Source: Synechococcus sp. CS-1330 (lineage in GTDB: Bacteria; Cyanobacteriota; Cyanobacteriia; PCC-6307; Cyanobiaceae). From it: 64,000 nt of DNA. The number at the start of each line of letters is the position of its first letter. Position 1 is the first letter of the stretch. Of this stretch, positions 11,754-18,569 are shown piece after piece. The stretch lies in contig JAHLYR010000068.1 in assembly GCA_025128025.1 (NCBI GenBank), forward strand, positions 1 through 64,000. Reading direction: 5' to 3'. Both the position numbers and the translations under genes were made by a program. The notes below the pieces were generated by a model that did not search any database, was not told the origin of the DNA, and worked only from the letters and a program-made list of their open reading frames with translations.

Positions 11754-12836
11754 TCAAGCGAAGCCCTTGCCGGAATCTTTGGCAACGCACACCTGCAGTT
11801 GCTTGCGCAACTGGGCGTGGTCGAGATTTTTACCGATCAGCACGATCTGGTTCTTGCGTCCTGAGCCCTCTGGCCAGTCGGAATCGTCGATCGAGAAGCG
11901 CTTGCCAGCCAGGTGGAAGACATGGCGGCGCTCACTTTCGTTGAACCAGAGGATCCCCTTGGCGCGAAACACCTCGGCTGGCAGCTGGTTGTCGAGAAAG
12001 TTCTGAAATTTGCGCAGGGCGAAAGGCCCCTCGGACGCAAACGACAACGAGGTGAATCCCTCGATGGCAGCGTGGTCGGGGTGATCGGCGTGATCGTGCT
12101 TGTGATGGTCGTGATCGTGATGCTCGTGTTCGCAGTGGCCGTGATCGTGGTCGCAGGAGCTGTGGTCTGGCTCGGCGCCGAGCTGCTGCTGGGCAACAAT
12201 TTTGTCGCTTTCGAACAGCCCCACGCTGAGCAGTAGCGGCAGGGGCACTTCGCCCTTCACCGAGCGCAGGATGCGGGCATCGGTCTTGATCTCGCGCAAC
12301 TGGGCCTCCAGGGCAGCCAGCCGCTCCTCAGCTACCAGGTCGCATTTGTTTAGTAACAGCATGTCGCTGTACACGATCTGGGCCCGGGCCACCTCGCCAT
12401 CCAGCAGCTCGTCGCTGAAGTTCTCGGCGTCTACCAAGGTGATGATCGAATCGAGCCTGGTGGCATCTCGCAGGTCGCTGCCGAGGAAGGTCATGGCCAC
12501 CGGCAGGGGATCGGCCAGGCCGGTGGTCTCCACCACCAGATAGTCCACCGGATCGGGGCGCTCCAGGATGCGGTACACCGCTTCGAGCAGTTCACCGTTG
12601 ATGGAGCAGCAGATGCAGCCGTTGCTCAGCTCCACCATGTCTTCGCCGGTGGCAACAATCAGGTCGTTGTCGATGCCGATTTCACCGAATTCGTTGACCA
12701 GCACGGCGGTTTTGACCCCCTGCTGATTGCTGAGAATGTGGTTGAGCAGGGTGGTCTTACCCGCCCCCAGAAAGCCGGTGAGGATTGTCACGGGCAGGCC
12801 CGTGGGGGTGGCACTGGCGGTCATGGAATGGGGCAT
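11754..12836 (-). CDS. COG0523 (CobW/ZNG1-type) metallochaperone GTPase
   Basis: G3E-family GTPase of 360 residues. Walker A GFLGAGKTT lies at 21-29, the metal-binding CICC at 74-77, the Mg-binding ETTG near 103 and the guanine motif NKCD at 163-166. A His/Asp/Cys-rich loop at 224-255 contains 17 His and probably binds zinc. A CobW C-terminal domain follows. Proteins of this subgroup near Zur sites deliver zinc to client enzymes when zinc is scarce, rather than acting in cobalamin synthesis. It lies upstream of the HupE-like gene and downstream of the second porin, all on the minus strand. I see no Zur box immediately before it, so readthrough from the Zur-boxed porin promoter is possible. 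Confidence 0.9.
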   Translation of the reverse strand: MPHSMTASATPTGLPVTILTGFLGAGKTTLLNHILSNQQGVKTAVLVNEFGEIGIDNDLIVATGEDMVELSNGCICCSINGELLEAVYRILERPDPVDYLVVETTGLADPLPVAMTFLGSDLRDATRLDSIITLVDAENFSDELLDGEVARAQIVYSDMLLLNKCDLVAEERLAALEAQLREIKTDARILRSVKGEVPLPLLLSVGLFESDKIVAQQQLGAEPDHSSCDHDHGHCEHEHHDHDHHKHDHADHPDHAAIEGFTSLSFASEGPFALRKFQNFLDNQLPAEVFRAKGILWFNESERRHVFHLAGKRFSIDDSDWPEGSGRKNQIVLIGKNLDHAQLRKQLQVCVAKDSGKGFA

Positions 12837-12900: not shown

Positions 12901-14382
12901 TCAAAACTGGAAGCTGGTTTTGATCAGGGCACCGAATTGGTTGGACCCATCCCCATTCCCCCCAGGATTGTTGAGCACGAAGATCGCCGGTGTCACGGAG
13001 ATGGCGTCGGTGACCTGCCACTGGTACCACCACTCCCAAGCCCACACGCCGGATTCGCTGGCAGCTCCATTGCGGGTGGCGGTTGCAAAGGCGGGTTGGC
13101 CCACTCCCATGCCAAAGCTGTTGCCCTCAGCCAGCACATCGCTCCATTGCAGGCCCACCATCCATGACTGGCTGGTGCGCAGGTCTGAGCCGGAGCTGCC
13201 GTTGACGCCGTAACCAACGCTGATCGAGGGCAGCCAGCCACTCTCGGCCGGCTGCCAGAAGCCGCTGATGCCAAAGGCATTGGTGTTGACGCCGTTCTCC
13301 TCGATCTCGGTGGTGATGAACGGGGTGGCACCGGGCACACCCACACCGGCCTCGACATAGGAATAGAGCGCGGCGATGCCCCAGTTCTCCTGGCCGTAGC
13401 CCAGCTGCACCGTGCTGGTGCCTGCTGAGCTGCTGCTGAACAGGCCCTGGGCGGAATCGGCGCCATTGCCCGCCACGTAGTTAGCGCTCACGCTCCATCC
13501 ATTCTGTTGCCACCAGAGCCCCAGGCCTGGGCCGAGGTTTTTGTTGTAGGCCAGCGGTGCACCGTTGAGGGTGAGCACGTTGGGGATGGTGTCGCCTGGA
13601 TAGGCGCTGGGCCAGAGGGCGAGCATGTCTTCCTGGCCCACCCGGCCGCCGAGGGTGGCAGTGAACTGGCCACCGATCGGAGACCGCCCAAGCGGGAACT
13701 GATAAAAAATCTTGTCGATGCCCACCACATCGGGGCCACCCTCTTCCTGGAAGGCGATCTCCAGGGTGGAGAGGCCGCCGCCGAAGGCATTGCGATCGCC
13801 ATCGAAGTTTCCGGCCCGCAGCACCGTGCGCAACAGATCCTTGCCGCTGAAGCTGGTGTCGAGGTTGAGCTGCAGGTCGTAGTTGAACGTGACCTGCTCA
13901 CCGGCAGGATTGTTGCTCACCCCACCCACCACGAAGCTGGCCAGGCCGGAGAGCTTCGTGGTGGTTGAGAACTGGCTGGCCTCGATTTCGCCCGCTTTTG
14001 CTTCGAGGCCATTGACGCGGCCCTTGAGCACGGCCAGTTCCTGCGCGAACTCGGCCATCAGGCGCTTGAGGGTGTCGGTCACTTCAGTGACGCGATCGAG
14101 ACAGGCGTTGAGCAGGGCGGCGGCCTCAAAGCGGGTCATGGCCTGCCCACCTCTGAAGCTGCCGTTGGGGTAGCCGGCGACGCAGCCGTATTTCTCCACC
14201 AGGTTGGTCAGGCCCTGATAGGCCCAGTCGCTGGGGCGCAGATCAGAGAACTGGCTGATGCCGGTATTGAGGTCGGCGGGTTCGAATTCAGCGGCAGCTG
14301 CGGTGACCGGTGCAACTACTCCAGCAGCAGTTGCTGCAATCAGCAGGATTGGGCGAATTTTCAAGGCTGCTAAGCGGGGCAT
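12901..14382 (-). CDS. SLH-domain porin (SomA/OprB-like), second copy, probably zinc-regulated
   Basis: The 493-residue precursor repeats the layout of the first porin: signal peptide, SLH domain (QFSDLRPSDWAYQGLTNLV to MTRFEAAALLNACLDRV, about 41-98), coiled-coil linker (TLKRLMAEFAQELAVLKGR), and a beta barrel ending in IKTSFQF. It is clearly paralogous to the porin 2 kb away. It lies between znuA and the COG0523 GTPase, with a Zur-box-like palindrome 22 bp before its start codon. This suggests it is the outer-membrane entry route for zinc under starvation. Reported picocyanobacterial Zur regulons include such a porin (established knowledge); direct control here is inference. Confidence 0.93.
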   Translation of the reverse strand: MPRLAALKIRPILLIAATAAGVVAPVTAAAAEFEPADLNTGISQFSDLRPSDWAYQGLTNLVEKYGCVAGYPNGSFRGGQAMTRFEAAALLNACLDRVTEVTDTLKRLMAEFAQELAVLKGRVNGLEAKAGEIEASQFSTTTKLSGLASFVVGGVSNNPAGEQVTFNYDLQLNLDTSFSGKDLLRTVLRAGNFDGDRNAFGGGLSTLEIAFQEEGGPDVVGIDKIFYQFPLGRSPIGGQFTATLGGRVGQEDMLALWPSAYPGDTIPNVLTLNGAPLAYNKNLGPGLGLWWQQNGWSVSANYVAGNGADSAQGLFSSSSAGTSTVQLGYGQENWGIAALYSYVEAGVGVPGATPFITTEIEENGVNTNAFGISGFWQPAESGWLPSISVGYGVNGSSGSDLRTSQSWMVGLQWSDVLAEGNSFGMGVGQPAFATATRNGAASESGVWAWEWWYQWQVTDAISVTPAIFVLNNPGGNGDGSNQFGALIKTSFQF

Positions 14383-14390
14383 GGAACCAG

Positions 14391-14418
14391 TCTATAGCAA
14401 GAATGAGAACGATTCTCG
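14391..14418 (-). promoter_or_regulatory. Zur-box-like palindrome and -10 element before the second porin
   Basis: The core gagaacgattctc (14405-14417) is a perfect 5-3-5 palindrome. Aligned to the 7-1-7 TGATAAT-N-ATTATCA consensus used for cyanobacterial Zur, TGAGAAC-G-ATTCTCG matches 10 of 14 positions. A TATAGA -10-like hexamer follows on the minus strand at 14391-14396, so bound Zur would cover the promoter. The resulting transcript would have a very short leader. Confidence 0.65.
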
Positions 14419-14438
14419 TTGAGAGCGCTGGTTGAGCG

Positions 14439-15491
14439 TCAGCGGATGGCCTGCCAGCGCCTGCTCAGGGCCTGCTGGCCGGATGGGTCGCAGCGGCCTC
14501 CCAGGCCGTTGACGATCAGGCAGGTGTTGGCGGTGAGGGTGGCCACCAGGTTGCCGTTGCCATCGGGTTCCGCTGCCAGACCGTCGGCCACCAGTGGTGC
14601 GGCGGCGATGGGCACACCGCTGAGGCTGCTGACCCGCTGCAGCGCTTTGCCTGCCGGCAGCTGTTCGGCGAACAGCATCGGCACCTGCTCGCGCCGCAAT
14701 TGCTCCAGCACGGCCTGGAAGGCCTGGGGGCGCAGGTTGTCGCTGCTGCTGCTGGCATCCACTACCGCCAGTTCCTGCAGTCCGTAGGCCCGGGCCAGGC
14801 TGGCAAAGGCCCTGTGTCCGGTGGCCAGGGGTCTGGCGGTGGGAATGGTGGCAAGTTGCCGGCGGTTCCAGGTGTCCAGCTGCTGCAAAGTCGCCGTCAT
14901 CGCCTGGGCCCGGGCGGCAATGGGGGCTTGGGCGGCAGGCTTTAGCTCCTGAAGTTGCTGGGCCACCAGCAGCACAAGAGCGGCCGCCTGGGTTGGGTCG
15001 TGCCACACGTGGGGATCCCGGTCGCCATGGGCATGCTCGTCTTCGTCATGGTTTTCCTCGCCATGGCCATCCTCGTCGTGGTGATCGTGGGAATCGGCGG
15101 TCTTGGGCGGCCCAGCTTTTAGGACCGGGCTGTTGGGTACGGCCAGTTCGGCTACGGCAACGGTTTTGGTCTGGCTTGTTCCCGGCTTGCTCAGTGCGGC
15201 GAGGGCTGGGGTGAGGCCGAAGCCGTTGATCAGTACCAGCTGGGCCTGGCTGAGCTCCCGGCTCTGCTGGGGCGTTAGCCGGAATTGATGGGGGTCGTCG
15301 CCCGGCTGCAAAAGGCAGCTCACCCGTAGGTCGCTGGCGGCCAGGCGTTGGGTGATGTCGCAAAGGACCCCGTCGGCAGCGATCACGTCGGCCGGTGGGG
15401 GAGTGCGGCAAGCCTGCAGTCCTACGGCTGCTGCTAATGCCAGAGCGAGAGAGGCAGCTGCGGGAGCGGGTATACGGGTCACAACTGGCAT
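14439..15491 (-). CDS. znuA: Zinc ABC transporter substrate-binding protein ZnuA
   Basis: Cluster A-I metal-binding lipoprotein-like SBP of 350 residues. A hydrophobic leader ends in GLQAC (Cys28), a plausible lipobox. Expected zinc ligands are His68 (DDPHQF), His161/His164 (DPHVWHDP) and His226 (TGHRAF). A His/Asp/Glu-rich loop at 135-157, characteristic of zinc- rather than manganese-specific members, lies between the first two ligands. It is divergent from the unknown membrane gene, znuC and znuB, with a strong Zur-like box in the shared intergenic region. It captures Zn2+ in the periplasm for ZnuBC. Confidence 0.92.
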   Translation of the reverse strand: MPVVTRIPAPAAASLALALAAAVGLQACRTPPPADVIAADGVLCDITQRLAASDLRVSCLLQPGDDPHQFRLTPQQSRELSQAQLVLINGFGLTPALAALSKPGTSQTKTVAVAELAVPNSPVLKAGPPKTADSHDHHDEDGHGEENHDEDEHAHGDRDPHVWHDPTQAAALVLLVAQQLQELKPAAQAPIAARAQAMTATLQQLDTWNRRQLATIPTARPLATGHRAFASLARAYGLQELAVVDASSSSDNLRPQAFQAVLEQLRREQVPMLFAEQLPAGKALQRVSSLSGVPIAAAPLVADGLAAEPDGNGNLVATLTANTCLIVNGLGGRCDPSGQQALSRRWQAIR

Positions 15492-15506
15492 ACTTGGTTC
15501 CGCGAA

Positions 15507-15521
15507 TGATAATGGTTCTCA
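15507..15521. promoter_or_regulatory. Zur-box-like palindrome in the znuA / znu-operon divergent promoter
   Basis: TGATAAT-G-GTTCTCA matches the 7-1-7 TGATAAT-N-ATTATCA pattern at 12 of 14 positions, with a perfect left half. It sits 16 bp before the znuA start and about 54 bp before the ATG of the plus-strand membrane gene, so one site could repress both directions when zinc is sufficient. The zur gene is 2.2 kb away. Confidence 0.72.
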
Positions 15522-15574
15522 CGGTGTCATCTGTGGGTTGGCTGCGGCTCGTTCTGCCGAGCCCCCCAAAAAAA

Positions 15575-16588
15575 ATGGGATTGTTGGAGTTGATGCCGCT
15601 GATTCAGGGCGTGGATAGTTCTGCTTTGACCAGGCCCCACGCCCTGCTGATGGCGGTTGTGCTGATGTTTTTCTATCTCGATGCCTTCGTGCTGGGGGCT
15701 CCGGGCGGGATGGCGTTGGCGCTGTTGTTGCTGGCGCTGGTGGTTCTGCTGGGCTTTTTGCGGCATGCGGGCCATGGCCCCCCTGGAGCGATCCAGACCG
15801 TGCCCGTGCTGCTGGCAGCTTTTGCTGCTCTGGTCGTGCTGGTGCTGAGCCGTGGAGCTCTTGTTCCTGTGGCACTGGCTGCTTCGCTGGTGGGTGTTGC
15901 CGGCGGGCTGGTCGAGGCCATCGGCCATTCCAGCCATCGTTGCCAGGCGGTGGCTGCTCCGGTGTACTGCGGCGCTTTTGCTGGGATGACCTCTGAGCTG
16001 GTGCTCGGCTATCCGGGCTGGGTGGTACTCGCAGGGGTGCTGGCTGGACTGGCGTTGTCGCTCCTGACGAACAGTTGGAGCGGTATCGGCGGCAAGCTTG
16101 GAACAATCGCCTTTCTGGGGGGGCTCGGCGCCACGGGGCTGGCCCTGGTCTCCGGTGCGAGCGGTGCCGGCGCCCCTCTACATGCATTTACCGGCGCAGA
16201 GCGCTGGCTGGTGTTGATCGCCTCCCTGCTCTCTCCGCTACTCACCCATAGGCTCAGCTACTACTGGGGCTTTGGGGTGGTGCTGGGCTCCGCTCTGCCC
16301 TCCCTGCTGGTGGCCCTGCTCCTGGCCCTGCTGCCCCCTTCTTTGGAGCTTGCGCCGGGGCCCTTGGCGGCTATGTGGCTGGGCGCCAGTTTCGTCGGCA
16401 TGACAGCTCCAGAGCGGCTCGCCCCGCGCCCGGTACCCCTACTGCTGGCGATGGGCCTGCTGTTCGCCCTGCTGAGCTTCAGCTTCGCTCCGCGCCTGGC
16501 GGGGATCGGCGGTGACCTCGGGGCAACGGCGGCGGTGTCGGTGTTTGCCGTGCTGGGAGCGCGGGTACTGGTGCTCGACCGTCGTTAG
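15575..16588 (+). CDS. Unknown polytopic membrane protein in the znu operon, with internal duplication
   Basis: Not recognised. From the ATG used the product is 337 residues with about ten hydrophobic helices. Two copies of a motif block are visible. Copy one runs from CGAFAGMTS (132-140) to GIGGKLGT (170-177). Copy two runs from LGASFVGMTAPE (269-280) to GIGGDLGAT (310-318). Repeated G-A-x-x-GMT and GIGGxLG elements suggest a pseudo-symmetric transporter or channel fold. A His/Cys patch GHSSHRC lies at 117-123. It is the first gene after the Zur-box, 26 bp before znuC. The start is uncertain: no Shine-Dalgarno precedes the ATG, which follows a C6A9 run; GTG at 15533 and ATG at 15506 or 15512 are in frame. 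A role in zinc uptake is inferred from context only. Confidence 0.75.
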   Translation: MGLLELMPLIQGVDSSALTRPHALLMAVVLMFFYLDAFVLGAPGGMALALLLLALVVLLGFLRHAGHGPPGAIQTVPVLLAAFAALVVLVLSRGALVPVALAASLVGVAGGLVEAIGHSSHRCQAVAAPVYCGAFAGMTSELVLGYPGWVVLAGVLAGLALSLLTNSWSGIGGKLGTIAFLGGLGATGLALVSGASGAGAPLHAFTGAERWLVLIASLLSPLLTHRLSYYWGFGVVLGSALPSLLVALLLALLPPSLELAPGPLAAMWLGASFVGMTAPERLAPRPVPLLLAMGLLFALLSFSFAPRLAGIGGDLGATAAVSVFAVLGARVLVLDRR

Positions 16589-16614
16589 GTTTGCGGTTGC
16601 CCTGATGGTGTTGT

Positions 16615-17310
16615 GTGTCGCTTGAGGTGAGTGAGCTGCGGGTGCGCCGCGGCGGCGAGCTGGCTCTCGACGGCTTGGCTTTTGCGCTCGAGCCCGGCAC
16701 GCTCACCGCCCTGGTGGGCCCCAACGGCGCCGGCAAAAGCACCCTGCTGCAGGCCATTGAGGGTCAGCTGCCGATCGAGAGCGGTTCGATCCGGCTCGAT
16801 GGGGTGCCCCTCACCTTGGCCCTGGCGCGACAGCAGTTGGCCCTGATGCCCCAGCGGGGGGAGATCGCCTGGCACTTCCCTATCAATGTGCGGGAGTTGG
16901 TTGCCCTGGGGCGGATGGCCGCCAAGCGTCCTGGCTGCTGCGATGTGGAAGCTGCCCTGCAGAGGGTTGGCCTGGCCGGGTTGGCGGGCCGGCGCCTGGA
17001 TCAGTTGTCTGGTGGCCAGCAGCAGCGAGCCCTGCTGGCCCGCACCCTGGTGCAGCCAGCCAGGCTGCTGCTGCTGGATGAGCCCTGCGCTGCCATCGAT
17101 CCCCCTTCACGCACCCAGCTGCTCAAGGTGATGGGCCAGCTGCGCGATGCCGGTCTCACCCTGCTGGTGAGCAGCCACGACTGGGGCCGCGACCTCGATG
17201 CCTACGACCGAGTGCTGGTGCTCGATCGCTCCCTGCTCGCCGACGGCAGCCCCCAGCAGGTGCGCCAGGCCCTCGGCGACCTGCGGGTAGGCAACCACTG
17301 CTGCGGTTGA
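16615..17310 (+). CDS. znuC: Zinc ABC transporter ATP-binding protein ZnuC
   Basis: ABC ATPase of 231 residues that energises zinc import through ZnuB. Walker A is GPNGAGKST (35-43), the Q-loop lies near MPQRGEIAWHFPINV, the signature is LSGGQQQRALLARTL and Walker B is LLLLDEPCAA; the H-loop is SSHDW. The MPQR-x-x-IAWHFP segment is typical of metal-type ZnuC/MntB ATPases. It starts with GTG. It is separated from its permease partner znuB by the antisense zur gene; its stop is just 10 bp from the zur stop. Confidence 0.92.
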   Translation: MSLEVSELRVRRGGELALDGLAFALEPGTLTALVGPNGAGKSTLLQAIEGQLPIESGSIRLDGVPLTLALARQQLALMPQRGEIAWHFPINVRELVALGRMAAKRPGCCDVEAALQRVGLAGLAGRRLDQLSGGQQQRALLARTLVQPARLLLLDEPCAAIDPPSRTQLLKVMGQLRDAGLTLLVSSHDWGRDLDAYDRVLVLDRSLLADGSPQQVRQALGDLRVGNHCCG

Positions 17311-17320
17311 TGGCCTGGCG

Positions 17321-17722
17321 CTAGCTGGCCTGGCGCTGTTGACAGCTTCCGCAGAGACCGAAAAATTCCAGGGTGTGAAACAGCAGCTGGAAGCCCGCGC
17401 TCTGGTCGCCGTCTAGGTGCACGTCGTGCATGGGGCAGTCATTAAGAACCACCGTGGCGCCGCAGTCGACACAGGTGAGGTGGTGCTCGTCCCGATCTGT
17501 GGGGGCGAACAGGGCCTCGCCGCTGGGCAGGTGGCGGCAACGGATCCAGCCCCGCTGCTGCAGCTGGCGCAGGTGGCGGTAAACCGTGGCCAGCCCCATG
17601 GGCTGGGAGCCTTGGCGCAGCAGGGCGTGCAGGTCCTGGCCGGAGAGTTCCCGGTCGGCTTGGCGCAACGCCGTAAGCAGCAGCTGCTGGCGGTCGCTTG
17701 ACGCGGCAACCTGGGAGGGCAT
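17321..17722 (-). CDS. zur: Fur-family zinc uptake regulator Zur
   Basis: Fur-family repressor of 133 residues. The winged helix lies at about 8-75 with the recognition region MGLATVYRHLRQL (42-54). The dimerisation domain carries the structural zinc ligands C84-x2-C87 and C124-x2-C127, and sensing residues are likely in DEHH (78-81) and the HDVH segment. Location within znu genes and near Zur-like boxes identifies it as Zur rather than Fur or PerR. The long upstream open frame (to 18085) is a shadow of znuB; the ATG used begins the family N-terminus. It is antisense between znuC and znuB, only 34 bp from the znuB start, an unusual layout that could give mutual interference of expression. Confidence 0.9.
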   Translation of the reverse strand: MPSQVAASSDRQQLLLTALRQADRELSGQDLHALLRQGSQPMGLATVYRHLRQLQQRGWIRCRHLPSGEALFAPTDRDEHHLTCVDCGATVVLNDCPMHDVHLDGDQSAGFQLLFHTLEFFGLCGSCQQRQAS

Positions 17723-17756: not shown

Positions 17757-18569
17757 ATGGAGACTCTTTGGTGGCTGCTGCCCCTTGTGCTGGCGCTGGT
17801 GATCGGCGGCCTCTGCCCATTGGCCGGCACCTTGCTGCTGGTGCAGCGGCGCCTGTTCCTGGCCAATCTCGTGTCGCACGCGGTGTTGCCGGGGTTGGCG
17901 CTGGCGCTGGCCTTGCGGCTTGATCCTGGCCTCGGTGGGGTGATCAGCGGCCTGGCCGGTGCCCTGTTGGCGGAGCGGCTCAGCCGCGGTGATCGTTCTG
18001 GTGAAGGGGGCGATGAGGCGGTGCTCAACACCGTGCTGGCGGGCTTTCTCGGTTTAGGGGTGCTGTTGATCCCCCTGCTGCACATACGGGTAGATCTGGA
18101 GGCGGTGCTGTTTGGCGATCTGCTGGCCGCCGCTCCTGCCGACCTGCTGCGCAGCCTGCTGGCCCTGGTGGCGGTGCTGCTGCTGCTCGCCTGGCGCTAT
18201 CACCACTACGTGTATCTGGGGGTGGATCCCATCGGCGCCGCCAGTGCTGGTTTGCCGGTGCAGCGGCTGCGGCTGCTGCTCACCCTGGTGACGGCTTTCA
18301 CGGTGGTGAGCGCCATGACCGCCGTGGGGGTGGTGCTGGTGATTGCCTTGATGGGTGCTCCGGCCCTAGTGGCCTTGGCTGGAGCAGCCAGCCTGCGCCA
18401 GGCCCTGGGGCGCTCGGCCCTGGTGGGTATGGGGATCAGCGGTGGCGGCTTTCTGCTGGCGATTCAGCCAGCTGTGAACCTGCCGCCCGGCCCCTTGATC
18501 GGGGTGCTGTGCATGGGCCTGCTGCCCCTGGCCTCCCTGCAGCACCGGCGCCTTTCAGCCGGCGGGTAG
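17757..18569 (+). CDS. znuB: Zinc ABC transporter permease ZnuB
   Basis: ABC-3 family inner-membrane permease of 270 residues with about eight helices. The N-terminal CPLAGTLLLVQRRLFLANLVSHAVLPGLAL is the family hallmark (S-H-A-V-L-P-G), and the C-terminal part has the VGVVLVIALMGAPALVA segment followed by a coupling region. Together with ZnuA and ZnuC it completes the importer. No promoter is apparent in the 34 bp upstream, so it is probably read from the znu operon promoter through the zur gene on the opposite strand. Its 3' end overlaps the convergent neighbour by 15 bp. Confidence 0.92.
   Translation: METLWWLLPLVLALVIGGLCPLAGTLLLVQRRLFLANLVSHAVLPGLALALALRLDPGLGGVISGLAGALLAERLSRGDRSGEGGDEAVLNTVLAGFLGLGVLLIPLLHIRVDLEAVLFGDLLAAAPADLLRSLLALVAVLLLLAWRYHHYVYLGVDPIGAASAGLPVQRLRLLLTLVTAFTVVSAMTAVGVVLVIALMGAPALVALAGAASLRQALGRSALVGMGISGGGFLLAIQPAVNLPPGPLIGVLCMGLLPLASLQHRRLSAGG

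Follow-up and report, generated by a model that had tools for sequence, protein, structure and literature searches.

The zinc-transport locus of Synechococcus sp. CS-1330, a freshwater, Cyanobium-type picocyanobacterium whose nearest named relatives are Cyanobium, raises the question of what a membrane protein gene does between the divergent znuA and znuC. We analyzed a stretch of 64,000 nucleotides from contig JAHLYR010000068.1 (the window), in which the gene under study, X, occupies an open reading frame at 15575–16588 on the forward strand; an earlier note on this DNA had given the frame, its position and a 26-bp gap to znuC, all as they are found here. The reading towards which we lean, by a modest degree, is that X encodes a channel-like inverted-repeat permease which conducts a small solute and was brought under Zur control in one clade.

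Layout of the znu locus and its Zur box

The translation start of X in the window is probably the GTG at 15611 (325 residues) or a later codon and not the ATG at 15575 used previously (337 residues), because the relative G007 has an in-frame stop directly upstream of the X start. Residues are therefore counted from 15611 (Table 1). X is a real gene under purifying selection, with dN/dS values of 0.16–0.27 against three relatives, and the corresponding range for ZnuA is 0.18–0.31.

The Zur box between znuA and X, GATAATGGTTCTC, is the sole exact match within the whole 2.5-Mb genome. In eight of the other znu loci scanned it is kept in the space separating znuA from the gene that follows, with 0–2 mismatches; no recognizable match was found in WB8. 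Its GATAAT is also the −10 element of the sole promoter-like site in 14350–16700 (site 15485–15513), and no promoter-like site was found between X and znuC. The box lies over a promoter with no gene intervening before X, as is the case for members of a Zur regulon, and the placing of X first after a Zur box by the earlier note is correct; judged by sequence, a Zur-controlled position for X is supported. In Synechococcus WH8102 a single Zur box overlaps the −10 elements of divergent znuA and znuC, an arrangement that the window shares in having its box over a −10 element between divergent znuA and the next gene, except that znuC follows the box directly in WH8102 whereas X is interposed in the window (PMC9337993). 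The cluster is not one simple operon: znuC and znuB are separated by zur on the opposite strand, so that znuB may be transcribed apart from X.

Table 1. Coordinates of X, its parts and the surrounding znu genes in the window
Feature	Position	Strand	Basis
znuA, binding protein, divergent from X	14439..15491	-	PF01297 E=1e-53
Zur box GATAATGGTTCTC, between znuA and X	15508..15520	+	motif scan, relatives
X, two-repeat membrane protein	15611..16588	+	ORF, relatives, dN/dS, start choice
Two extra N-terminal helices (predicted), residues 3–52	15617..15766	+	AlphaFold2 model
Repeat 1, five predicted helices, residues 63–180	15797..16150	+	profiles, model, loop charges
Motif YCGAFAGMTS, repeat 1, at short helix h5	15965..15994	+	conserved across phyla
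Motif GIGGKLG, repeat 1, predicted cytoplasmic side	16082..16102	+	loop charges, conservation
Repeat 2, five predicted helices, inverted, residues 195–324	16193..16582	+	profiles, model, loop charges
Motif GASFVGMTA, repeat 2	16382..16408	+	conservation
Motif GIGGDLG, repeat 2, predicted outer side	16502..16522	+	loop charges, conservation
znuC, ABC ATPase, 26 bp 3′ of X	16615..17310	+	PF00005 E=1e-29
zur (FUR family), between znuC and znuB on the opposite strand	17321..17722	-	PF01475 E=9e-17
znuB, permease	17757..18569	+	PF00950 E=2e-41

A second Zur-like box, GAGAATCGTTCTC, with 2 mismatches, is located at 14405–14417 (-) of the window, upstream of an OprB/SLH porin gene (12901–14382, -) that is followed by a CobW-type GTPase gene (11754–12836, -). 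Similar Zur-like boxes stand ahead of the OprB/SLH porin in relatives, which suggests that the porin of the window is under Zur control as well. The porin beside znuA in G004 (L100 6588–7314) apparently lacks its middle, matching residues 1–86 and 345–493 only.

A rare duplicated family in split and fused forms

Searches with X return no match in Pfam (up to E=10), NCBIfam (E up to 1) or PHROGs (E up to 0.1), and the same collections yield nothing convincing for its distant relatives. By these searches X belongs to a rare, unnamed family that lacks a Pfam or NCBIfam model, as the earlier note had it in recognizing none. Relatives occur in Cyanobium-type cyanobacteria, Actinobacteria, Planctomycetota and Bacteroidota, on a plasmid of the haloarchaeal genus Natrinema and on a Pseudoalteromonas plasmid; none was found in viral contigs. 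With the starting genomes counted, X is present in 9/300 genomes of its own family, and relatives are present in 3/247, 1/199 and 4/198 genomes of the Bacteroidota, Planctomycetota and actinobacterial groups, respectively. A phylum-wide cyanobacterial sample holds X in 1/244 genomes, that one being the window's own.

X consists of two diverged copies of one repeat. The profiles of its N- and C-terminal halves align over 114 columns with E=1e-16 and a score of 101.7, compared with a maximum of 19.5 among 100 shuffles of the columns and 19.2 for the reversed control, and the N-half profile, used as a query, recovers the second half from the same genomes with E values of 1e-6 to 1e-17. An ancient duplication is supported, and the earlier proposal of such a duplication with a pseudo-symmetric membrane fold agrees with the profile comparison, the split-gene relatives described below, the structure prediction and the loop charges. 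The two sequence blocks behind that proposal are real, with some correction to their details: the pattern GA-x-x-GMT holds for the first block, whereas the second reads GASFVGMT, and the spacing put at about 137 residues measures 138 between the GMT motifs and 140 between the GIGG motifs.

Cyanobacterial, actinobacterial, planctomycete and haloarchaeal copies of X are single genes. In all Bacteroidota loci that were read (those of Christiangramia and two others), the repeats are two adjacent, often overlapping genes of about 187 and 134 aa, and in Pseudoalteromonas they are split into two adjacent genes of 102 and 125 aa. Because the repeats are separate neighbors in these two groups, X of the window is, on comparison of the loci, the fused form of a two-gene repeat pair. 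DUF606-type duplicated membrane proteins show the same evolutionary pattern, with split pairs of opposite orientation as well as fused two-domain forms (PMC3962082); unlike DUF606 (PF04657), X has no Pfam match and is built of five-helix repeats plus two extra helices. The actinobacterial-group genome G1072 (L065 5758–7748) carries two tandem, diverged full-length relatives of X.

Predicted topology, fold and conserved residues

AlphaFold2 models X, from 17 sequences, with a pLDDT of 89.7 and a pTM of 0.89, and models an actinobacterial relative, 38% identical, with a pLDDT of 87.4 and a pTM of 0.87. Structure prediction had been put forward in the earlier note as a check for twofold symmetry, and both models lend it support, with 2+5+5 helices in which the third helix of each five-helix set is short. 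Across 18 relatives, K+R per loop is at least 1.22 in the seven predicted inner segments and at most 0.88 in the six outer loops, and the alternation is also seen in 11 split pairs. With five crossings per repeat, and therefore an inverted arrangement, the two repeats are predicted to lie in opposite orientations, and the loop charges accordingly predict GGKLG of repeat 1 on the inside and GGDLG of repeat 2 on the outside.

Comparison of the X model against the PDB with Foldseek gives nothing below E=1e-3. When the Foldseek candidates are realigned, nine urea-transporter entries come first, followed by Amt-type chains (Z of 5.2 and below) and RnfD/NqrB (4.3 and below); the best, 3k3g, reaches a Z of 6.5 with an rmsd of 5.4 Å over 181 residues, a weak similarity at the level of a common arrangement that counts against the channel reading. 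For the second model the top 22 entries are all urea transporters or Amt/Rh/Mep proteins (3k3f, Z 6.5), with RnfD/NqrB near 4.2. The models are thus suggestive of a fold nearest to urea and Amt/Rh transporters, though a Z of about 6.5 may reflect only a common arrangement. Urea transporters, ammonium transporters and RnfD/NqrB have inverted five-helix halves in common (PMC9588780, PMC12174285).

Like the urea transporter (UT, PF03253; dvUT 3k3g), which is the best structural match of both models, X is predicted to contain two inverted five-helix repeats; unlike it, X lacks the UT motifs NNPxSG and LxGFN, has GAFxGM and GGKLG, and carries two extra N-terminal helices. Amt/Rh/Mep proteins are the next best matches (Z 4.8–5.8) and follow the same repeat plan, whereas X has neither their Pfam match nor conserved (pore) histidines. 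RnfD/NqrB, with inverted five-helix halves resembling those of urea and ammonium transporters (PMC9588780), matches at a Z of about 4.2, and no flavin site, complex partners or sequence match of that kind were seen in X.

Identification of X as a urea transporter (PF03253) was considered and rejected, with no Pfam match up to E=10 and a profile score at noise. Profile-profile comparison with eight urea transporters scores 19.0, while shuffles reach 18.95 and the reversed control 21.9; X is not filed as a urea transporter because sequence profiles show no relation, and the profile search for distant transporters envisaged in the earlier note thus came out negative for this family. Sequence profiles found no solved structure for X, nor was there a match in a viral fold library. 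Elsewhere in the same genome, on contig C72 (L104 1312–2973), a single open frame of 554 codons joins a genuine urea transporter domain (PF03253, E=2e-71) to EF-hands at the C terminus.

Conservation was scored in 25 N-half and 29 C-half rows, and the conserved residues are glycines, Phe, Met, Thr, Ser, the Lys of GGKLG and Cys120. These rows contain no conserved His column, and the only D/E/H/C columns at 60% or more are C120 (84% of rows, missing from several family members) and E/D at residue 197, where helix 8 begins (68%); the two GM methionines are present in 88–93%. The membrane helices hold no conserved His/Asp/Glu ligand set, and X has no match to PF00950 (ABC-3 metal permease), znuB being a separate gene. 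Zinc permeases such as ZIP are unlike X in their pattern of conserved residues. The lack of a conserved His and the near lack of conserved acidic residues argue against X as a zinc permease, and we infer that its residue pattern is better suited to a channel through which a small neutral solute passes.

Taken with the predicted topology, X would be a 12-helix inner-membrane permease that starts with two helices and continues with two inverted five-helix repeats. The short helices of these repeats, which carry YCGAFAGMT and GASFVGMT with a GxGGxLG loop after each, probably come together mid-membrane. In its family an antiparallel protein pair would have been fused into one chain. What X conducts would most likely be a small solute, probably a neutral one, and not Zn2+, judging by analogy from the urea and Amt/Rh channels that come nearest in fold and from the absence of conserved His and near absence of conserved acidic residues; the channel mechanism, the solute and any benefit under zinc starvation are conjecture.

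Linkage to znu and the possible place of X in zinc starvation

X adjoins znuC in five genomes, namely that of the window, G012, G004, G007 and WB8 (in WB8 on two contigs). A gap of 26 bp separates the two genes in the window, G012 and G007, the X–znuC junction sequence is kept in all five znu-linked relatives, and the five copies form one group on the tree (support 93/96). By this phylogeny the linkage has a single origin and is confined to one Cyanobium clade. The more distant cyanobacterial copies G014 and L013 are not beside znu, nor are those of Actinobacteria, Bacteroidota, Planctomycetota and the plasmids; in L012 and G008, X is on short contigs, under 6 kb. Copies outside the znu clade have no common neighbor gene that we found, and the best Zur-like box upstream of unlinked copies matches 10/15 positions, which is noise.

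In G005, ZnuA, ZnuC and ZnuB are 97–99% identical to those of the window and X is lost, leaving a remnant (L094 4375–4570) in which short 5′ and 3′ ends flank an internal deletion between the Zur box and znuC. As the linkage is limited to one clade and G005 has lost X with znu intact, the znu address of X is a single, clade-specific event, which selection has preserved in most of the clade although X is dispensable. G010 and G014 have short znu intergenic regions without X, either ancestral or secondarily lost. G013 retains the final 32 residues of X as a relic (L103 3080–3175), and no strong ZnuB match was found in that genome. In G014 the genes flanking the unlinked X encode a TM_HPP membrane protein and a YHS-domain P-type ATPase (L072 6611–11816).

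The earlier note suggested a zinc permease, an accessory to ZnuB or a sensor, and called for a survey of linkage to znu; the survey finds X beside znu in one clade and absent from it elsewhere among the genomes examined. A direct part for X in the uptake of zinc, whether as an additional zinc permease or as a ZnuBC accessory, would agree with its place first after the Zur box and 26 bp before znuC, with the keeping of that place in five relatives down to 67–72% identity, and with purifying selection similar to that on ZnuA. We nevertheless consider it unlikely, given a family without a conserved ligand set, no linkage outside the clade, a close relative that does without X, and a ZnuB that is separately present; the same one-clade linkage, G005 deletion and missing ligand set weigh against the sensor. 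The genomic address is all that ties X to zinc. Zinc starvation might still favor a metal role that does without His/Asp/Glu, given the conserved Cys120 and pair of GM methionines, which speaks against the small-solute channel. Handling of a soft metal such as Cu(I) through these residues, to which the frequencies of C120 and the two methionines and the ATPase near X in G014 could point, is highly improbable: several family members lack C120, and the remaining neighborhoods share no common metal genes.

X could also be a passenger. In that case a permease of general function would have come to lie in the intergenic region of znu and would borrow the promoter there, with nothing gained that is specific to zinc. 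The patchy family, which stands alone elsewhere and has no common neighbors, and the deletion in G005 are what such an origin would leave, while the position and 26-bp junction kept across the clade, together with the low dN/dS, make it improbable. Under the preferred reading of a small-solute channel recruited to Zur control, X, which in one Cyanobium clade entered the space from the Zur box to znuC a single time, should be made together with ZnuC when zinc is scarce. With X under a Zur box in picocyanobacteria, the zinc-starvation response of freshwater phytoplankton would gain a transporter that is so far unstudied.

Duplication of a five-helix unit is the presumed origin of the urea/ammonium fold. 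More tentatively, X may be the founder of a family of its own, made up of channels with inverted repeats within the urea/ammonium-transporter fold class, and one cyanobacterial clade would have added this pore to its response to zinc starvation; we regard this as possible if somewhat doubtful. If so, living split forms, as an antiparallel pair, and fused forms would show the origin of such pores, and separate, oppositely oriented half-genes would make the duplication history of the fold experimentally testable.

Two Cyanobium genomes, G015 (L097 7134–9131) and G003 (L098 7039–9037), carry two genes between znuC and the Zur box/znuA, encoding a zinc-binding alcohol dehydrogenase of class III type and an S-formylglutathione hydrolase-like esterase. 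These formaldehyde-detoxification-type genes were considered as a second cargo of the Zur slot and rejected, because both are oriented towards znuA, which leaves the Zur box downstream of them. Both genomes also have, within a few kb of the first, a second znuABC set, about 52% identical and with its own Zur-like box (L097 1–1970 in G015 and L098 1–1906 in G003).
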